DNA of 64,000 nt from Spirochaetales bacterium (GCA_016936555.1 JAFGXR010000021.1:1-64000), one strand, 5' to 3'. Positions 50,898-58,664 are shown, counted from the stretch's first letter. The notes: generated from the letters alone by a model not told the origin. Numbers and translations are program-made.

Positions 50898-52409
50898 TTA
50901 TAAGAGCTGCTCTTTCGCCATTTCGCCGATAGTGCGGAAATCCGCTTTTCCGCTCCCCATCTTGGGGAACTCATCTATGACCAGAAACTTCTTAGGTATG
51001 GCGATAGGGGGCAGTTTATCGGCCAGATCTCTGATGAGTTTCTCCTTGTCCACTTCGTGAGTCAGCACACAGACTAAAGAGGCTCCTTTTATATTATCGG
51101 GGACATCGACGACACAGCATTCGATATCCTCGTGAAGAACATCTTCAATAATCATCTCCGTCTTGACCAGAGAGACCATTTCCCCGCCGATTTTGACAAA
51201 GCGCTTCAATCGACCTTTATGCCAGAGGAACCCGTCATCATCGAGTAACCCGATATCTCCGGTGAAATACCATCCGTCGTTAATGGCTTCTTTCGTCTGC
51301 GCCTCGTCTAGATAGCCTTTCATAACCAGATCGCCTCTGACCATGATTTTACCTTCTTCTCCGACGGGAACCTCTTCTCCGCTCGCTATATCGATAATCC
51401 TCACCTCACAGCTGGGATAGGGAAGACCGACACTGCCCGGTTTGTTCCAGTTTCTCCGGTTTACGCTGATGACAGGACTTGTTTCAGTCGCTCCGTAACC
51501 TTCCACGATTTCGATATTGTGTTTTTCCCTGTATCCCTCTCTCAGCCAGTCAGGCGTTTTATCCGCACCGGCTACGATGAGAGTCAGCTTTTCGAAATCA
51601 CCGGGTTTTGATTCTCTCAGATATCCCGAAAGAAAAATCGGTGTCGAAGCGATGGCTGTACAGCCTTCCCGCTTCATAATAGAAACGACGGTTTTGTATT
51701 CCAGAGGGTTCGCATAGGTAACCGCCGTAAAACCATGGGTCAGAGGCAGCCAGAAGTTGGTCTGCAAACCGAAGATATGGAACAACGGCAGACCTGAAAA
51801 CATAACGTCATTCTCGTTCAGTTCAAGTACATTGTAGGAATCGATAGCATTTGACCCGATATTTTTATGGGACAGCTGAACGGCTTTGGGATCTTTCTCG
51901 CTGCCGCTTGTAAAAAGGATTGCCGCTGTATCATCAATATCAGCAGCAGGAAGGCTTTTTATAATGGATGAAGCAGGCAGCTTGGTTTTCAGCGCCGCTC
52001 CGACTTTGTCGAGAGCCGTCACAGATTCCATGATATCTTCGATAAGAATCATGCCTTCGATGACCGGGCACTTAATTTTCTCCAGAAGTGCTTTTGACGT
52101 GATAATGGTCGTAAAACCGCATGTCCTCTGAGCATAACGGCAATTCTCTTCGGCACCGGTGGAATAGTTGATCATAACGGGAATTTTCCCGGCCATAAGC
52201 GTTCCGATGGAGGAGAGCATGGCTCCCGCAGAGGTGGGAATCATAATACCAAGATATTTGTCTTCGTACTTCCTGAACTTTTTTGACAGTATCAGAGAGG
52301 CGATCAGAGCTCTATCGAACGATATCGTGGCTCCGGTCATTCTATCTTTTATAGCTGTTCTGCTTTTATTTTTTTTTGCGGTCTCGATAAACTGGTAGTG
52401 AAGAATCAC
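50898..52409 (-). CDS. AMP-binding acyl-CoA/acyl-ACP synthetase (Aas-like)
   Basis: A 503-residue ANL-superfamily enzyme that adenylates a carboxylic acid and transfers it to a thiol. LFTSGSEKDPKAVQLSHKN (P-loop), VEGYGATETSP, YFTGDIGLLD and the hinge KRFVKIGGEMVSL match the synthetase half of Aas-type proteins. The C-terminal catalytic Lys is in FPKMGSGKADF. No acyltransferase domain is attached. The start is GTG 52409, with AAGGAG seven bases upstream. It is divergent from the 2-oxoacid oxidoreductase operon and may activate fatty or branched-chain acids, but the substrate is not determined by sequence. Confidence 0.87.
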   Translation of the reverse strand: MILHYQFIETAKKNKSRTAIKDRMTGATISFDRALIASLILSKKFRKYEDKYLGIMIPTSAGAMLSSIGTLMAGKIPVMINYSTGAEENCRYAQRTCGFTTIITSKALLEKIKCPVIEGMILIEDIMESVTALDKVGAALKTKLPASSIIKSLPAADIDDTAAILFTSGSEKDPKAVQLSHKNIGSNAIDSYNVLELNENDVMFSGLPLFHIFGLQTNFWLPLTHGFTAVTYANPLEYKTVVSIMKREGCTAIASTPIFLSGYLRESKPGDFEKLTLIVAGADKTPDWLREGYREKHNIEIVEGYGATETSPVISVNRRNWNKPGSVGLPYPSCEVRIIDIASGEEVPVGEEGKIMVRGDLVMKGYLDEAQTKEAINDGWYFTGDIGLLDDDGFLWHKGRLKRFVKIGGEMVSLVKTEMIIEDVLHEDIECCVVDVPDNIKGASLVCVLTHEVDKEKLIRDLADKLPPIAIPKKFLVIDEFPKMGSGKADFRTIGEMAKEQLL

Positions 52410-52475
52410 AGTTTACTCCTTCTATATAGTAAAATTTGAAAATTTATACGAGTTGTGATTCATTATATTCTATTC

Positions 52476-52497
52476 TTACAGAATTTAAAATCTGTAA
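52476..52497. promoter_or_regulatory. 22-bp palindrome in the divergent iorA promoter region
   Basis: TTACAGA (52476-52482) and TCTGTAA (52491-52497) are exact inverted halves around A-TTTAAA-A, itself palindromic in the centre. Only the A/A pair breaks full symmetry. It lies about 40 bases upstream of the -35 box of iorA and about 67 bases from the GTG of the divergent synthetase gene. This is a good candidate operator for a dimeric regulator of one or both operons. Confidence 0.6.
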
Positions 52498-52533
52498 ATA
52501 AAAAAATCGGCTAAAAAACCATCATAAAATATT

Positions 52534-52581
52534 TTGACTAAAAATCAAATTAATTGTATATAATCAAATATAGTCTATAAT
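52534..52581 (+). promoter_or_regulatory. Tandem promoters of the iorAB-ptb-buk-aminotransferase operon
   Basis: TTGACT (52534-52539) with TATATA at 52557-52562 (17-base spacer), overlapping TATAAT at 52559-52564, forms a strong candidate. A second TATAAT at 52576-52581 with TTGTAT 16 bases upstream forms another. The region is strongly AT-rich. The leader to the iorA ATG is 30-50 bases and carries AGAGGTCTGAT as ribosome-binding site. Confidence 0.6.
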
Positions 52582-52618
52582 AAAAGACGATAGAGTTAAA
52601 AAAATAAAGAGGTCTGAT

Positions 52619-54220
52619 ATGAGTGAATTGGTATTGCTGGGAGATGAGGCTGTTGCTCAGGGCGCTATAGATGCCGGATTGTCCATCGCCTACGGTTATC
52701 CCGGAACCCCCTCCACTGAAATTGTCGAATATCTGCAGGACTGGAAACGGAAAGAGGATAATTCCCTGATCGCTTCGTGGTGTTCCAATGAGAAAACAGC
52801 TTACGAAGCGGCTGTAGCTGTCTCCATGATGGGGAAAAGGGCGCTTGTCACAATGAAGCATGTCGGGCTCAATGTCGCCGCCGATGCTTTTATGAATTCA
52901 ATAGGATACACCATTCACGGCGGGCTGGTACTGGCTGTCGCCGATGATCCGGGCATGCATTCATCGCAGAATGAACAGGATTCCCGCTATTATGCCGATT
53001 TTGCCAGAACGATTTGTCTCGAACCGAGAAATCAGCAGGAAGCCTATGAGATGACCAGGGACGCTTTCGAATTATCGGAAAAACTCCATTTGCCTGTTCT
53101 TCTGAAACTGACCACGCGAATTTCACATTCGAGAGCTGTCATCAAGCGGGGAGACGTAAGGCCCAAAAACGAATTCAATCCTTCAAAGGACAGGTCTCAC
53201 TGGACAAATCTTCCCTTTCTGAGCCGTCAGAATTATGAAGATCTGTGGCAGCAGCGTCCTGTTCTGGCAGAAATCTCTGAAAGCAGTGATTACAATCCGC
53301 TCTCTATAAACGACAGGAATAAAGAGGTCGCTGTAATTACGACAGGTCTGGCATACAATTATTACAAAGAAGCCGAAAAAGAGCTGGAAAATAAACCTTC
53401 TCATCTTCATATCAGCTTTTATCCCATGCCTGAGGATAAAATCCGCAAACTGGCGGGAAGCGCTGCAAGAATCATCGTTATTGAAGAGGGATATCCCTTC
53501 GTCGAGAGATTTCTCAAGGGAATCCTTCCTCAGGCGGTTCAGGTTGACGGAAAACTCAACGATGTCATACCGCACCTCGGTGAAATCACGCCCGATATAT
53601 GCCGGAAAGCCATGGGACTGGCATCGTTCGAAAAAGCTGAAGTCAAAGCTTTCGATATGCCGGGCCGCCCGCCGCAGCTCTGCAAAGGCTGTCCTCACAC
53701 AGACAGTTACAAAGCCCTGAACGAGGTTATGGCGGAATATGAAAACCCAGTGGTGACATCGGATATCGGCTGTTATACCCTGGGATATTTCGCACCCCAC
53801 AATGCTATTCACAGCTGTCTCGATATGGGCGCTGCCGTAACCATGGCCAGAGGCGCCGCCGAAGCCGGTGCTCATCCGGCCGTCGGCGTCATCGGGGACA
53901 GTACTTTTATGCATACGGGAATCCAGGGACTGGTCGATATGCTGTCCGCCGGAAACAGAGTCACGCTCATGATTCTCGACAACAGCATTACCGCAATGAC
54001 CGGTATGCAGAGAACCATAGTCGAATCATCGGGAATTCCAGAGATAGTCAAGGGCTGCGGGGTCGATCCAGCTCATGTGAGAACAATTGTTCCTCTTCCG
54101 AAATATCACGAGGAAAATGTCAAAGTGATCCGCGAGGAAGTGGAATATGACGGTGTTTCGGTGATTATCGCGCAGAGAGCCTGCATTCACGTAGTTAAAG
54201 CTAAATACGCTAAGGGGTAA
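52619..54220 (+). CDS. iorA: Indolepyruvate-type 2-oxoacid:ferredoxin oxidoreductase, alpha subunit (no ferredoxin domain)
   Basis: Oxidatively decarboxylates 2-oxo acids to acyl-CoA, passing electrons to ferredoxin, with thiamine diphosphate. The 533-residue subunit has the transketolase-like N-terminal part (LLGDEAVAQGAIDAGLSIAYGYPGTPSTEI) and the thiamine-binding C-terminal part (QLCKGCPHTDSY, GDSTFMHTGIQGL, LDNSITAMTG). It stops after IIAQRACIHVVKAKYAKG, whereas most IorA proteins continue with a two-[4Fe-4S] ferredoxin domain to over 600 residues. Electron transfer must therefore use a separate protein. It is first gene of the operon. Confidence 0.9.
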   Translation: MSELVLLGDEAVAQGAIDAGLSIAYGYPGTPSTEIVEYLQDWKRKEDNSLIASWCSNEKTAYEAAVAVSMMGKRALVTMKHVGLNVAADAFMNSIGYTIHGGLVLAVADDPGMHSSQNEQDSRYYADFARTICLEPRNQQEAYEMTRDAFELSEKLHLPVLLKLTTRISHSRAVIKRGDVRPKNEFNPSKDRSHWTNLPFLSRQNYEDLWQQRPVLAEISESSDYNPLSINDRNKEVAVITTGLAYNYYKEAEKELENKPSHLHISFYPMPEDKIRKLAGSAARIIVIEEGYPFVERFLKGILPQAVQVDGKLNDVIPHLGEITPDICRKAMGLASFEKAEVKAFDMPGRPPQLCKGCPHTDSYKALNEVMAEYENPVVTSDIGCYTLGYFAPHNAIHSCLDMGAAVTMARGAAEAGAHPAVGVIGDSTFMHTGIQGLVDMLSAGNRVTLMILDNSITAMTGMQRTIVESSGIPEIVKGCGVDPAHVRTIVPLPKYHEENVKVIREEVEYDGVSVIIAQRACIHVVKAKYAKG

Positions 54221-54227
54221 TTTAAAA

Positions 54228-54794
54228 ATGACATACAATATTGTTTTATGCGGAGTCGGCGGACAGGGTGTTCTCTCTGTTGCCGCAATTATTGCCAGAG
54301 GAGCCATGATGGAAGGGCTCCAGGTCAAACAGGCTGAAGTTCACGGCATGTCCCAGCGGGGTGGTGCTGTTATCGCCACCATGAGGATATCATCGGAAGA
54401 AATCTTCAGCGATCTGATTTCGGAAGGACAGGCCGATATGATTCTATCCATGGAGCCTCTCGAGTCGATCCGTCATATAGCTTATCTGAAGAAAGGCGGC
54501 CAGCTGGTTACGGGGAAAGATCCCTTTATCAATATTCCCGATTATCCCGATAGGGAAGAGCTCTATTCGGTTATAAATTCCATAGAGGGATCGATGCTCA
54601 TAGATACGAAAAATCTCGCTGTCGAAGCGGGATCCCAGAGAGCCCAGAATATGGTTCTCGTAGGCTCCGCATCCAAAGTGCTGCCTATAAAGGAAGATAC
54701 TTTTCTGGGGGCTATCGAAAATGTTTTCACCCGCAAAGGGGAAGATATCGTAACAATAAATAAAAAAGCATTTGTACTGGGAAGGAATTCATAA
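54228..54794 (+). CDS. iorB: Indolepyruvate-type 2-oxoacid:ferredoxin oxidoreductase, beta subunit
   Basis: A 188-residue gamma-type POR domain subunit that forms the active enzyme with IorA. The hallmark GVGGQGVLSVAAIIARGAMMEG at the N-terminus is followed by QAEVHGMSQRGGAVIATMR. The length is normal for IorB. It starts 8 bases after the iorA stop and ends directly against the next start. It acts on 2-oxo acids derived from amino acids by transamination. Confidence 0.92.
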   Translation: MTYNIVLCGVGGQGVLSVAAIIARGAMMEGLQVKQAEVHGMSQRGGAVIATMRISSEEIFSDLISEGQADMILSMEPLESIRHIAYLKKGGQLVTGKDPFINIPDYPDREELYSVINSIEGSMLIDTKNLAVEAGSQRAQNMVLVGSASKVLPIKEDTFLGAIENVFTRKGEDIVTINKKAFVLGRNS

Positions 54795-55673
54795 ATGACA
54801 TTTAACGAACTGGCTGATCGTCTGAAAGGCGGTCGGAAACCAATAATTGCCGTTGTGGCACCTACGGGAGAAAACGTCTATTCTGCTCTTAAGGAAGTCG
54901 AAAGCGAGGGAATCTGTTCTTTCCTCCTCGTCGGAAATGAAAACCTGATCAGCCGGGAGACCGCTGATTTCGGTTTGACAGAATTTGAAATTTTCCCCAG
55001 CATTAATCCGGCAGATGATGCCGTGGAAGCCGTTCTCAGCGGAAGAGCCCATGTCCTGATGAAAGGGAAAGTCGATACTTCCGTCTTTATGAAGGCTGTC
55101 CTCAACCGGAAGGAAGAACTTATGAAGAGTCCGCTCCTGTCCCATATTCTCGTAGCGGAGACTTCAGAAGGAAAGCTGTTGGGAGTTACAGATGGCGGTA
55201 TGGTCATAAATCCGGACCTTCAGCAGAAAACAGCCATTATTCAGAATGCCATTGATGTTTTCAACAATCTCGGTATCTCAAACCCGAAAGCTGCGGTTCT
55301 TACAGCTATGGAAAGGGTTAACCCTTCCATTCCCGCCTCTCTCGATGCGGCACTGCTGGCAAAGATGGCGGAAAGAGGACAGATTACCGGAGGTATTGTC
55401 GACGGGCCTCTGGCCATTGATCTGGCTTTGAGTAAAAGATCCTGTGAAATAAAAGGCGTCAAAGGTCCGATTCAGGGGGACGCGGATATTCTCGTGGTTC
55501 CCGATATGAATACGGGGAATATATTCGGGAAAAGTCTCATACTCTGTGCCGGTTTTCCATCGGGAGGTATGATAGCCGGAGCCACCTTCCCCATCATCAT
55601 GTTATCCCGGGCCGATCAGGCCAGCGAAAAGAAAAATTCCATTATTCTGGCACTGGCCGCGGCGGGGGTCTGA
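54795..55673 (+). CDS. ptb: Phosphate butyryltransferase-like acyltransferase
   Basis: Converts acyl-CoA plus phosphate to acyl-phosphate plus CoA. The 292-residue protein belongs to the phosphate acetyl/butyryltransferase family: VLMKGKVDTSVFMKAVLN, LGVTDGGMVINPDLQQKTAIIQNA, ALDAALLAKMAERGQI-like helix, and GGMIAGATFPIIMLSRADQASEKKNSI at the C-terminus. Size and pairing with butyrate kinase favour Ptb over Pta. It starts one base after the iorB stop, with AAGGA inside iorB. In this operon the substrate is probably the branched or aromatic acyl-CoA made by IorAB. Confidence 0.9.
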   Translation: MTFNELADRLKGGRKPIIAVVAPTGENVYSALKEVESEGICSFLLVGNENLISRETADFGLTEFEIFPSINPADDAVEAVLSGRAHVLMKGKVDTSVFMKAVLNRKEELMKSPLLSHILVAETSEGKLLGVTDGGMVINPDLQQKTAIIQNAIDVFNNLGISNPKAAVLTAMERVNPSIPASLDAALLAKMAERGQITGGIVDGPLAIDLALSKRSCEIKGVKGPIQGDADILVVPDMNTGNIFGKSLILCAGFPSGGMIAGATFPIIMLSRADQASEKKNSIILALAAAGV

Positions 55674-55674
55674 T

Positions 55675-56748
55675 ATGAAGAAGATTCTTGTCATCAACCC
55701 CGGCTCCACCTCGACTAAGGTCGCTTTATATGAAAGCGGCAAAGCCGGTGATGTGAAGGAAATTGCCTCGCAGTCTCTTTCTCACAGCCCGGAAGAACTG
55801 GACAGGTTCACGTCTACGGCAGCTCAGGAGGATTTCAGAGCTGAAACGGTCACGCGTTTTCTAAAAGAGAACAATGTGAAGGAACTTGACTGCTGCGCCG
55901 GCAGAGGAGCACCTGTGAAAGCCCTTGAAGCCGGCAGTTACTCGATCAATGAAACGATGCTGGAAGAGTTAAGAACAGAAAAATACTCCAATCATCCCTC
56001 CAATCTGGGAGCGCTCATTGCACATTCTGTCTCAGAGGAATTCGGTTGTCCGGCTCTGATCTGCGATCCTGTTTCTGTCGATCAGTTCGAACCCTTTGCC
56101 CGATATTCCGGATTGCCCGGAATGAATCGTAGAAGCAGGCTTCACGCTTTAAATATAAGGGCCATGGCGAGGCATTTTGCAGTTTCACAAGGCAAATCCA
56201 TGGATGAGCTCAATCTCGTTGTAGCCCATCTGGGTGGAGGTATTTCCATTGTTCCGATGAAAAAGGGACGGATGATCGATACCAATGACGCCAATGACGG
56301 CGGTCCCTTTTCCCCGCAGAGAGCGGGAACTCTGCCTTCCACACTTCTTGTAAAGTTGTGCTTTTCCGGAGAATACGCTTCGGCGGCACAGCTCAATAAT
56401 ATCCTGACGCAAAAGTCGGGGCTTCTCGCCTATCTCGGTTCCGATGACGGCCGGGAGATTGAGAAGCGCATAGCTGGTGGCGATAAGGAAGCGGAAGAGA
56501 TATATCATGCTATGACGTATCAGATCGGAAAAGAGATCGGAAGCGCTGCAGCCGCCCTGAAAGGGGAGGTCGACGCCGTGATACTGACCGGCGGACTCGC
56601 ATATGCTCCGCTCTGCACAAAATGGATTACAGAATATGTGGAGTGGATTGCTCCGGTCGTCGTGCAGGCGGGAGAACACGAATTGAATGCTCTGGCTGAA
56701 GCCGGAAGCCGGTTTATATTCGGAGAGGAAGAACTTAAGGAGTATTAA
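55675..56748 (+). CDS. buk: Butyrate kinase (branched-chain acyl kinase type)
   Basis: Transfers phosphate from acyl-phosphate to ADP, yielding ATP and a free carboxylic acid. The 357-residue ASKHA-family protein has VINPGSTSTKVALYESGK (phosphate 1), RHFAVS...LNLVVAHLGGGIS (His and phosphate 2), DTNDANDGGPFSPQRAGTLP (active-site Arg) and VILTGGLAYAPLC. All match butyrate or branched-chain fatty acid kinases. It starts one base after the ptb stop. The product in this context may be isovalerate, isobutyrate or an aryl acetate rather than butyrate. Confidence 0.92.
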   Translation: MKKILVINPGSTSTKVALYESGKAGDVKEIASQSLSHSPEELDRFTSTAAQEDFRAETVTRFLKENNVKELDCCAGRGAPVKALEAGSYSINETMLEELRTEKYSNHPSNLGALIAHSVSEEFGCPALICDPVSVDQFEPFARYSGLPGMNRRSRLHALNIRAMARHFAVSQGKSMDELNLVVAHLGGGISIVPMKKGRMIDTNDANDGGPFSPQRAGTLPSTLLVKLCFSGEYASAAQLNNILTQKSGLLAYLGSDDGREIEKRIAGGDKEAEEIYHAMTYQIGKEIGSAAAALKGEVDAVILTGGLAYAPLCTKWITEYVEWIAPVVVQAGEHELNALAEAGSRFIFGEEELKEY

Positions 56749-56749
56749 A

Positions 56750-57940
56750 TTGCCTATTGCAAAAAACCATCTTGTTGCGGTTTTCGGAACATCTCTCATC
56801 CGGAAGATGTTCAATGAAGGAACCAGACTGAAAGCGGAGCATGGAGAAGAGAATGTCTTCGATTTCAGCCTGGGGAACCCTATTGTTCCTCCGCCTCAGG
56901 AGTTCACCGATGCCGTAATCCGGATTATGAAGGCCGATATTCCCGGTAAGCATGCCTATATGACCAATAGCGGGTATCCTGAAACCAGGGAGTTTGTCGC
57001 CCGGTTCCTGACGGAAGAGCAGAGTGTAAAGGTTCATATGGAAAATATTGTCATGACCTGCGGTGCCGGTGCAGCGCTGACTCTACTTTTCCAGGCGATT
57101 CTCAATGTCGGCGATAACGTCGTTGTTTCCATACCGAATTTCGTGGTTTACAAGACTTATGTGGAGAACTTCGGCGGTGTCTTGAGAACTGTTCCCTGTC
57201 AGGAAAATTTTTTTCTCGATCTCGATGCCATGGAGAAAGCCATCGACGGCAACACAGCCGCTGTCCTTATTAACTCGCCCAACAACCCCTGCGGCGTCAT
57301 CTACCCGCAGGAGCAGATCGATGGGCTTGCGGCACTCCTTGAGAAAAAGAGCCGGGAGTTCAATCGGGCCATATATCTGGTCAGCGATGAACCCTACAGA
57401 CAGATAGTATTCGACGGATATAAGGTTCCGGCCATATTTCCCTCATATAAACACTCCATTATCGTTTCCTCTTATTCTAAAAGTCTTTCCATTCCCGGAG
57501 AGAGAATAGGATGGACAGCCGTTCATCCCGAAGCCGATGAGGGCGATCTGATCATCAAGGTCATGACCACGGCTACTACGGGGCTCGGCTTTACCAATGC
57601 TCCCGCTCTGATGCAGAGAGCTCTCGTGGAGGTGAATGGAAAAACTGTGGACCCTGAAATCTACAGGCACAAGCGTGATCTCCTGGCTGAACCGCTGAAA
57701 GAAATGGGGTATGACTTTATACTCCCCCACGGAACTTTCTATATCTTTATCAAAGCTCCGGGCGGCGATGATATGAAGTTTGTGGATACATTGCAGAACG
57801 AATTGATACTGGCAGTTCCTGGTTCAGGTTTCAATATGCCGGGATATTTCAGGCTTTCGTGCTGTGTTGAAGATGATATGATTATCCGGTCTCTGCCGGG
57901 ATTTAAAAAAGCAATAGAAAAAACATTGAAAAAAAACTGA
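56750..57940 (+). CDS. Class I/II pyridoxal-phosphate aminotransferase
   Basis: A 396-residue fold-type I aminotransferase. It shows FDFSLGNPIVPPPQEFTDAV at the substrate entry, a NSPNNPCGVIY block (Asn contacts PLP), the SDEPYRQIVFDG segment (Asp/Tyr to PLP), and the lysine motif SSYSKSLSIPGERIGWTA. It makes the 2-oxo acid that IorAB oxidises, with an acceptor such as 2-oxoglutarate. The start is TTG 56750, with AAGGAG seven bases upstream, two bases after the buk stop. Amino acid specificity (branched-chain or aromatic) cannot be read with confidence. Confidence 0.88.
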   Translation: MPIAKNHLVAVFGTSLIRKMFNEGTRLKAEHGEENVFDFSLGNPIVPPPQEFTDAVIRIMKADIPGKHAYMTNSGYPETREFVARFLTEEQSVKVHMENIVMTCGAGAALTLLFQAILNVGDNVVVSIPNFVVYKTYVENFGGVLRTVPCQENFFLDLDAMEKAIDGNTAAVLINSPNNPCGVIYPQEQIDGLAALLEKKSREFNRAIYLVSDEPYRQIVFDGYKVPAIFPSYKHSIIVSSYSKSLSIPGERIGWTAVHPEADEGDLIIKVMTTATTGLGFTNAPALMQRALVEVNGKTVDPEIYRHKRDLLAEPLKEMGYDFILPHGTFYIFIKAPGGDDMKFVDTLQNELILAVPGSGFNMPGYFRLSCCVEDDMIIRSLPGFKKAIEKTLKKN

Positions 57941-57957
57941 TGCGAAGCGTTCCTGAA

Positions 57958-57987
57958 GGGGAGCTGGATTCTCTATAACAGCTCCCC
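57958..57987. terminator. Hairpin terminating the iorAB-ptb-buk operon
   Basis: A perfect 9-bp stem GGGGAGCTG / CAGCTCCCC with a 12-base loop lies between the convergent aminotransferase and regulator genes. A run of six T follows on the plus strand 11 bases later, and eight T on the minus strand about 18 bases beyond the stem, so it may serve both. Confidence 0.65.
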
Positions 57988-57995
57988 GAAGGACG

Positions 57996-58664
57996 TCATT
58001 TTTTAGACTGTTCCTTAATCGCCTTCAGGTAGTTGTAAACAGTGAATCTCGAAATACCCAGTTCTTCAGCTGTAATCTCCACCCCTTTTTTGACACTGAA
58101 AATGCCTTTTTTATATAATTCACATATAACGGCTTTATTCCTTTCCGTTGAAGACATACCTCTCTGCTTATTGACCTCTTCCAGGGCCAGGGATATGGAC
58201 GAATCAATGAGTTCTCTCGTAGACTGCCTGTACTCTGCGGTTTTCGTCCCTGAATATTTATCCGAATCCGCCTGAAGGAAATCCTTGAAAAACTCCTGAA
58301 CGGGGATAGACAGATCCATATTGATGCAGAGGGCGCCGATAATGATATTGTTGCTGTTCCGAATCAGGGTGGTACATGACTTCAGCTCATTTTTACTCAA
58401 CGTGGTGTTCTTGAAGAAATTAATGAACGGCTCGTCGGCCTTTGACATATCTTCCAGCAGCTTGAAGACAAAATCGCTCATAGGCTCACCGACATCTCTG
58501 CCGCTTACATGTTTATTCTCAATAGCGATGATCGGTCTGTCCGAGGTTTCCATGGAATGGAGAACGACTTCGCAATTATTTCCGTAAATGAAAGCAATAC
58601 CTTTCATAACTGACTTGACACCTTTCAGTATAGCGTGGTCTTCTCTGTCGAAAGTATAATCCAC
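57996..58664 (-). CDS. YheO/DauR-type transcriptional regulator (PAS-like plus HTH)
   Basis: A 222-residue regulator. An N-terminal YheO-like PAS domain (about 10-125: FIYGNNCEVVLHS, RPIIAIENKHVSGRDVG, LIRNSNNIIIGALCINMDLS) precedes a C-terminal helix-turn-helix (about 165-218: IFSVKKGVEITAEELGISRFTVYNYLK). Relatives include DauR, which controls D-amino acid catabolism. It starts at GTG 58664, two bases after the upstream PilZ gene. Its position next to the amino-acid fermentation operon makes it a likely regulator of that operon, perhaps through the palindrome at 52476-52497. Confidence 0.85.
   Translation of the reverse strand: MDYTFDREDHAILKGVKSVMKGIAFIYGNNCEVVLHSMETSDRPIIAIENKHVSGRDVGEPMSDFVFKLLEDMSKADEPFINFFKNTTLSKNELKSCTTLIRNSNNIIIGALCINMDLSIPVQEFFKDFLQADSDKYSGTKTAEYRQSTRELIDSSISLALEEVNKQRGMSSTERNKAVICELYKKGIFSVKKGVEITAEELGISRFTVYNYLKAIKEQSKK

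Follow-up and report, generated by a model that had tools for sequence, protein, structure and literature searches.

A ferredoxin-domain-less indolepyruvate-type oxidoreductase in a candidate amino acid fermentation operon of a Spirochaetales bacterium

Gene content of the locus

The window, the whole stretch of 64,000 nucleotides analysed from a Spirochaetales bacterium, carries five plus-strand genes in the order IorA-IorB-Ptb-Buk-aminotransferase, all with open frames and with gaps of 7, 0, 1 and 1 bp as determined by ORF calling. The original prediction of an aminotransferase, IorAB, Ptb and Buk operon with gaps of 0 to 8 bp was borne out, and the gene identities held in Pfam and NCBIfam searches, but the aminotransferase, which it had named first, comes last. 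The first gene (52619-54220) codes for an IorA-type 2-oxoacid oxidoreductase subunit of 533 residues with fused alpha and beta parts (TIGR03336, 495 bits), in which the POR_N (PF01855, 56 bits) and TPP_enzyme_C (PF02775, 44 bits) domains both scored above cut-off. It is followed by the gamma-type subunit IorB (54228-54794; POR domain, PF01558, 112.7 bits; NF005324, 256.8 bits, cut-off 222), a Ptb-like phosphate acyltransferase (54795-55673; PTA_PTB domain, PF01515, 125 bits), the butyrate-kinase-family acyl kinase Buk (55675-56748; Acetate_kinase domain; TIGR02707, 415.6 bits, cut-off 289.1) and a class I/II PLP aminotransferase (56750-57940; Aminotran_1_2 domain; NF005305, 515 bits, cut-off 376). 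Buk and IorB exceeded the NCBIfam cut-offs for butyrate kinase and IorB, and IorA and Ptb stayed below theirs, Ptb reaching 273 bits against the 410.5 of TIGR02706 (phosphate butyryltransferase). Among solved structures, Ptb resembles the phosphate butyryltransferase 7vg9 (E 7.5e-60) and Buk the Probable butyrate kinase 2, 1x9j (E 1e-91). Mechanical ORF calling places the start of the aminotransferase at 56687, within buk. The TTG at 56750 appears to be the better start, since AAGGAG precedes it and the long ORF matches the profile only from residue 31 onwards.

The five genes are flanked by a divergent ligase gene (50898-52409, minus strand) and a convergent regulator gene (57996-58664, minus strand). 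The ligase has an AMP-binding domain (PF00501, 205 bits) and is acyl-ACP or long-chain acyl ligase-like. Its best NCBIfam match, NF006386, scored 482 bits, far below the cut-off of 1221, and the protein most resembles the ligase portion of acyl-ACP--phospholipid acyltransferases. Its identification as PaaK was rejected because PF14535, the PaaK C-terminal domain, had no match anywhere in the genome. The regulator is of the YheO type, with PAS_6 and HTH_22 domains (PF08348, PF13309), and may control the operon. Both genes had been predicted to complete the locus. They are present, the ligase outside the interval 52476-58664 assigned to the module, but they adjoin the operon only in a clade of three genomes (the window's and those of L013 and L014), and we therefore treat their part in the pathway as unproven.

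Between the ligase and iorA lies an AT-rich divergent promoter region (52410-52618). A candidate plus-strand promoter was noted by eye, with TTGACT at 52534-52539 and TATAAT at 52559-52564, separated by 19 nt. The pair is only suggestive, since a consensus scan, which took spacers of 16-18 nt only, gave no plus-strand site in 52410-52618. The number of sites in the promoter and terminator scan was no higher than in shuffled sequences.

IorA without its ferredoxin domain

Canonical IorAB (TIGR03336/TIGR03334) shares with the window's enzyme the fused alpha-beta IorA, a separate IorB, four cluster cysteines and the TPP domain, but canonical IorA also has a C-terminal 2x[4Fe-4S] ferredoxin domain, which is absent from the window IorA. 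This absence had been missed in the original prediction. The TIGR03336 match stops at model position 536 of 595 and its score lies below the equivalog cut-off of 650.9 bits; a domain-bearing control (L168) matched positions 1-595. The domain alone is not decisive for the cut-off, as the IorA of L209, which also lacks it, passes with 670 bits. Alignment of the window IorA with 80 relatives showed that the domain is missing in all 81, and that C355, C358, C385 and C522 are invariant in the same 81 sequences. The AlphaFold2 model of IorA (pLDDT 91.5) aligned over its full length (residues 1-533) to PFOR, with 505-512 residues and a Z score of about 30.

The genome-wide profile match to IorA runs across the TAA stop codon. 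Read-through of this stop to restore the ferredoxin domain was rejected, as the frame beyond it overlaps iorB and is without a ferredoxin motif. An explanation of the missing domain by sequencing error or pseudogene was rejected as well, because the 80 relatives stop at about the same place.

In PFOR, four cysteines are expected to hold the cluster nearest TPP, and by analogy C355, C358, C385 and C522 would be the ligands of the TPP-proximal cluster. The Sulfolobus OFORs offer a precedent for enzymes with one cluster. Electrons probably leave IorA via its single cluster straight to soluble ferredoxin. A sequence search of the PDB for a solved IOR returned other OFORs only.

IorA proteins of this kind form a widespread IOR-type branch without a built-in ferredoxin domain, found in Spirochaetota, Bacteroidota, Cloacimonadota, Calditrichota and others. 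A tree of 119 IorA sequences requires at least three changes between presence and absence of the domain; this was a quick tree with no bootstrap, and the cysteine motif used to score the domain may overlook divergent copies. L205, L207-L211, L213, L214 and L218 make up another group of IorA lacking the domain (518-541 residues, identity about 42%), most of them close to PaaK-like genes. No ferredoxin-domain-less IorA was found in the literature, which is not proof of absence, and neither was the pairing of such an enzyme with Ptb and Buk in spirochaetes.

Relatives of the operon and other fermentation genes

The gene order was compared among spirochaetes, as the original prediction had proposed. 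The complete seven-gene array, in unchanged order, is also present in L013 and L014, both from Spirochaetaceae MAGs, with identities to the window of 80-83% for IorA, 80-81% for IorB, 73-76% for Ptb, 79-81% for Buk and 74-75% for the aminotransferase. Because these are close relatives and synteny with L013 reaches past the operon on either side, we counted the three as one lineage. The IorAB-Ptb-Buk core occurs in three further lineages, L165/L166 (genomes G371/G377), L167 (G203) and L031, the last two also with an aminotransferase, which lies upstream in L031. A chance arrangement is ruled out, since L013 and L014 keep all seven genes and the other lineages keep the core. The pairing of IOR with Ptb and Buk is absent from most spirochaetes.

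Aminotransferase homologues adjoin IOR in L013, L014, L031, L167, L170, L173 and L021, and one aminotransferase family stands beside IOR in the PaaK setting (L173) as in the Ptb/Buk setting. A longer IorA with the ferredoxin domain is linked to Ptb in L168-L170, and in L170 Buk and an aminotransferase accompany it. Several loci depart from the common layout. At L167:5781-8114 (minus strand) IorA and IorB are fused in one frame of 778 residues, again without ferredoxin domain. At L031:5994-9976, genes for PaaK and a LIV-type branched-chain amino acid transporter are convergent to the aminotransferase-IorAB-Ptb-Buk genes. In the rumen and gut spirochaetes (L021-L024, L026, L175), an aminotransferase gene lies upstream of IorA-IorB with no Ptb/Buk or PaaK nearby; at L021, the sole annotated locus of this set, an M20 peptidase gene follows IorA-IorB.

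Trees were built from 59 rows for Ptb and 55 for Buk; these are quick trees with some long branches, and support values are SH-aLRT. Seven Ptb proteins linked to ferredoxin-domain-less IOR fell on one branch (98), apart from the main branch of VOR-linked Ptb (99). The Buk proteins of the same seven loci likewise shared one branch (99), away from the large one with VOR-linked Buk (97). By these trees, the Ptb and Buk of the window are phylogenetically separate from most VOR-linked ones. Among the neighbours of the spirochaete Ptb genes fetched, VOR was found within 5 kb in 24 cases and IOR in 12. The spirochaete VorBAC-Ptb-Buk clusters (for example L188, L191, L199, L274) resemble the window in joining an OFOR to Ptb and Buk, but they have a four-subunit VOR and Ptb and Buk of other branches. 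The genome G203 holds both modules, IOR-Ptb-Buk-aminotransferase at L167 and VorBAC-Buk-Ptb at L274.

Of the 58 ferredoxin-domain-less IorA sampled in spirochaetes, 28 had a PaaK-like gene nearby and 7 had Ptb/Buk, with both present in L031; the 24 with neither neighbour include some on short contigs. The PaaK-like genes matched TIGR02155 best, at 480-578 bits, below its cut-off of 646. In Spirochaete and Bacteroidota clusters such as L173 and L176-L179, IorAB belongs to the same family as that of the window, but an AMP-forming phenylacetate-CoA-ligase-like gene replaces Ptb and Buk. Two of these loci, L176 and L177, lie in genomes (G350 and G362) of the GTDB family to which the window belongs and have IorAB followed by two tandem PaaK-like genes; a search for Buk in G350 gave no match.

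The window's genome contains, separately from the operon, a complete four-subunit VOR (VorD-B-A-C) at C1. Its VorB scored 534 bits against a cut-off of 399, VorA and VorC adjoin it, and a two-cluster ferredoxin subunit is encoded upstream. This VorB shares 67-68% identity with its counterparts of G256, G371, G377 and G381, and 46-59% with the VorB adjoining Ptb/Buk in other spirochaetes. The oxidoreductase of the window has two subunits rather than four separate genes, and the use of a two-subunit IOR in place of a four-subunit enzyme, as had been proposed, does not describe this genome, which has both. Two more loci with POR domains code for a multi-subunit set (C20) and a fused form of 1174 residues (C132). 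The acyl kinases of the genome are two acetate kinases, the window Buk and a second Buk that stands alone at C113 (L097:8699-9760), which lies between genes for an ABC sugar-type transporter and a Na/Pi symporter and is 40% identical to the window Buk. Its phosphotransacylases are Pta, the window Ptb, which is the only stand-alone Ptb, and an HTH_3-Cupin_2-PTA_PTB fusion at C52 (L275:6465-7946, minus strand). The same type of fusion occurs at L165:2795-4354 (minus strand), and in G371/G377 its gene is the fifth of the IorA-IorB-Ptb-Buk operon; the protein may be a regulator sensing acyl-CoA or acyl-phosphate. An ADP-forming acyl-CoA synthetase as alternative exit was rejected, as the single match in the genome was a 307-residue frame of SucD size. 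Rnf and [FeFe]-hydrogenase genes are also encoded.

Proposed pathway and its alternatives

Both the families of the proteins and the conserved clustering of their genes support the predicted route from amino acid to 2-oxo acid, acyl-CoA, acyl-phosphate and finally acid plus ATP. We propose, with a probability of about 60%, that the genes form a single catabolic operon converting aromatic amino acids to arylacetates with ATP formation, via an IorAB without ferredoxin domain, Ptb and Buk. The aminotransferase would form the 2-oxo acid of its amino acid substrate, for which phenylalanine, tyrosine and tryptophan are the likeliest candidates, and IorAB would decarboxylate this 2-oxo acid oxidatively with CoA to the acyl-CoA. 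The two electrons would pass one by one from TPP to the one [4Fe-4S] cluster and on to soluble ferredoxin, to be reoxidised by Rnf, [FeFe]-hydrogenases or both. Ptb would then form the acyl-phosphate, and Buk the free acid and ATP. The likeliest main substrates of the oxidoreductase would be phenylpyruvate, 4-hydroxyphenylpyruvate or indolepyruvate.

The choice of arylpyruvates rests on the separate VOR, the Ptb and Buk clades, the PaaK-linked relatives, the presence of both modules in G203 and the preferences of two Clostridioides difficile kinases. In C. difficile, the IOR-adjacent kinase prefers phenylacetate and hydroxyphenylacetate, and the VOR-adjacent kinase prefers propionate, isobutyrate and isovalerate (PMC13285125). 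Arylpyruvates are thus the probable substrates of the window IorAB. For the use of indolepyruvate, no sequence motif or rule is known (PMC13290082).

The original prediction had assigned the operon to branched-chain amino acids. In that reading, isobutyrate, isovalerate and 2-methylbutyrate would arise from the 2-oxo acids of Val, Leu and Ile through IorAB, or through the separate VOR with the window Ptb and Buk acting on its products, and Buk would be the branched-chain fatty acid kinase described for a marine spirochaete. The VOR at C1 has no adjoining Ptb/Buk, and its products may share the only stand-alone Ptb of the genome, which leaves branched-chain use some likelihood. Two acetate kinase isozymes and a branched-chain fatty acid kinase were described in a spirochaete (Harwood and Canale-Parola 1982, cited in PMC3956926), and the two acetate kinases and two butyrate-kinase-type genes of the genome fit this enzymology loosely. 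If the genome is that of Spirochaeta isovalerica, the 1982 kinase could be either Buk. The existence of the second Buk at C113 counts against the branched-chain reading. The literature searched did not link the physiology of S. isovalerica, from the early 1980s, to genes. The membership of the oxidoreductase in the IOR family also speaks against this reading, as do its PaaK-linked relatives, the distinct Ptb/Buk clade and the two modules of G203, and we consider it unlikely. Slightly less probable still is a broad-range module, in which IorAB favours aromatics and promiscuous Ptb and Buk serve the products of IorAB and VOR about equally. It would account for a single Ptb alongside at least two oxidoreductases that make acyl-CoA, and the VOR of Clostridium sporogenes is reported to be broad, phenylpyruvate included (PMC13290082), but the distinct IOR- and VOR-linked clades suggest specialisation and VOR may rely on the other Buk, at C113. 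Finally, an operon running in reverse, from acid and ATP through acyl-CoA and reductive carboxylation to 2-oxo acid and amino acid, appears very improbable: every step of the clostridial counterpart is described as reversible (PMC13285125), and relatives adjoin PaaK-like ligases, which spend ATP to make arylacetyl-CoA, but the replacement of PaaK by Ptb/Buk suits ATP production and the genome is devoid of any PaaK.

In Bacillus and Enterococcus, ptb-buk-bkd operons convert branched-chain acyl-CoA to acid and ATP via Ptb and Buk, like the exit proposed here, but the oxidative step falls to an NAD-linked dehydrogenase complex and not to a ferredoxin-linked oxidoreductase. Clusters of OFOR, phosphotransacylase and kinase genes, IOR-linked ones included, have been published for clostridia, and one was reconstituted (PMC13285125); OFOR, Ptb and Buk also co-occur in Blautia and Intestinibacter (PMC13290082). 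The combination of IOR with Ptb/Buk, which had been regarded as unusual, was already described in Peptostreptococcales (PMC13285125). The window clusters its oxidoreductase, phosphotransacylase and kinase genes like HpdDEFG-HpdJ-HpdK of Clostridium scatologenes (PMC13285125), which likewise leads from amino acid to acid, ATP and reduced ferredoxin, but the Hpd oxidoreductase is a four-subunit enzyme of the VOR cluster, whereas that of the window is two-subunit and IOR-type without ferredoxin domain. By its published description, cluster 2 of the Firmicute C. difficile shares with the window an IOR-type enzyme and an acyl kinase (PMC13285125).

More tentatively, a single-cluster IOR without ferredoxin domain, mostly found beside PaaK-like ligases, might have been re-wired in several spirochaete lineages onto a single Ptb-Buk cassette that moves as one piece. 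An aryl-acid route that consumes ATP would thereby have become a fermentation of aromatic amino acids that yields it. If so, the single-cluster enzyme would be a distinct class of IOR with its own electron partner. The acyl-CoA exit, PaaK or Ptb/Buk, differs among related genomes and should determine whether ATP is spent or gained, and the label 'VOR' or 'IOR' alone could misassign products in annotation. For free-living spirochaetes, the operon puts the fermentation of amino acids with ATP yield on a genetic footing that can be tested.
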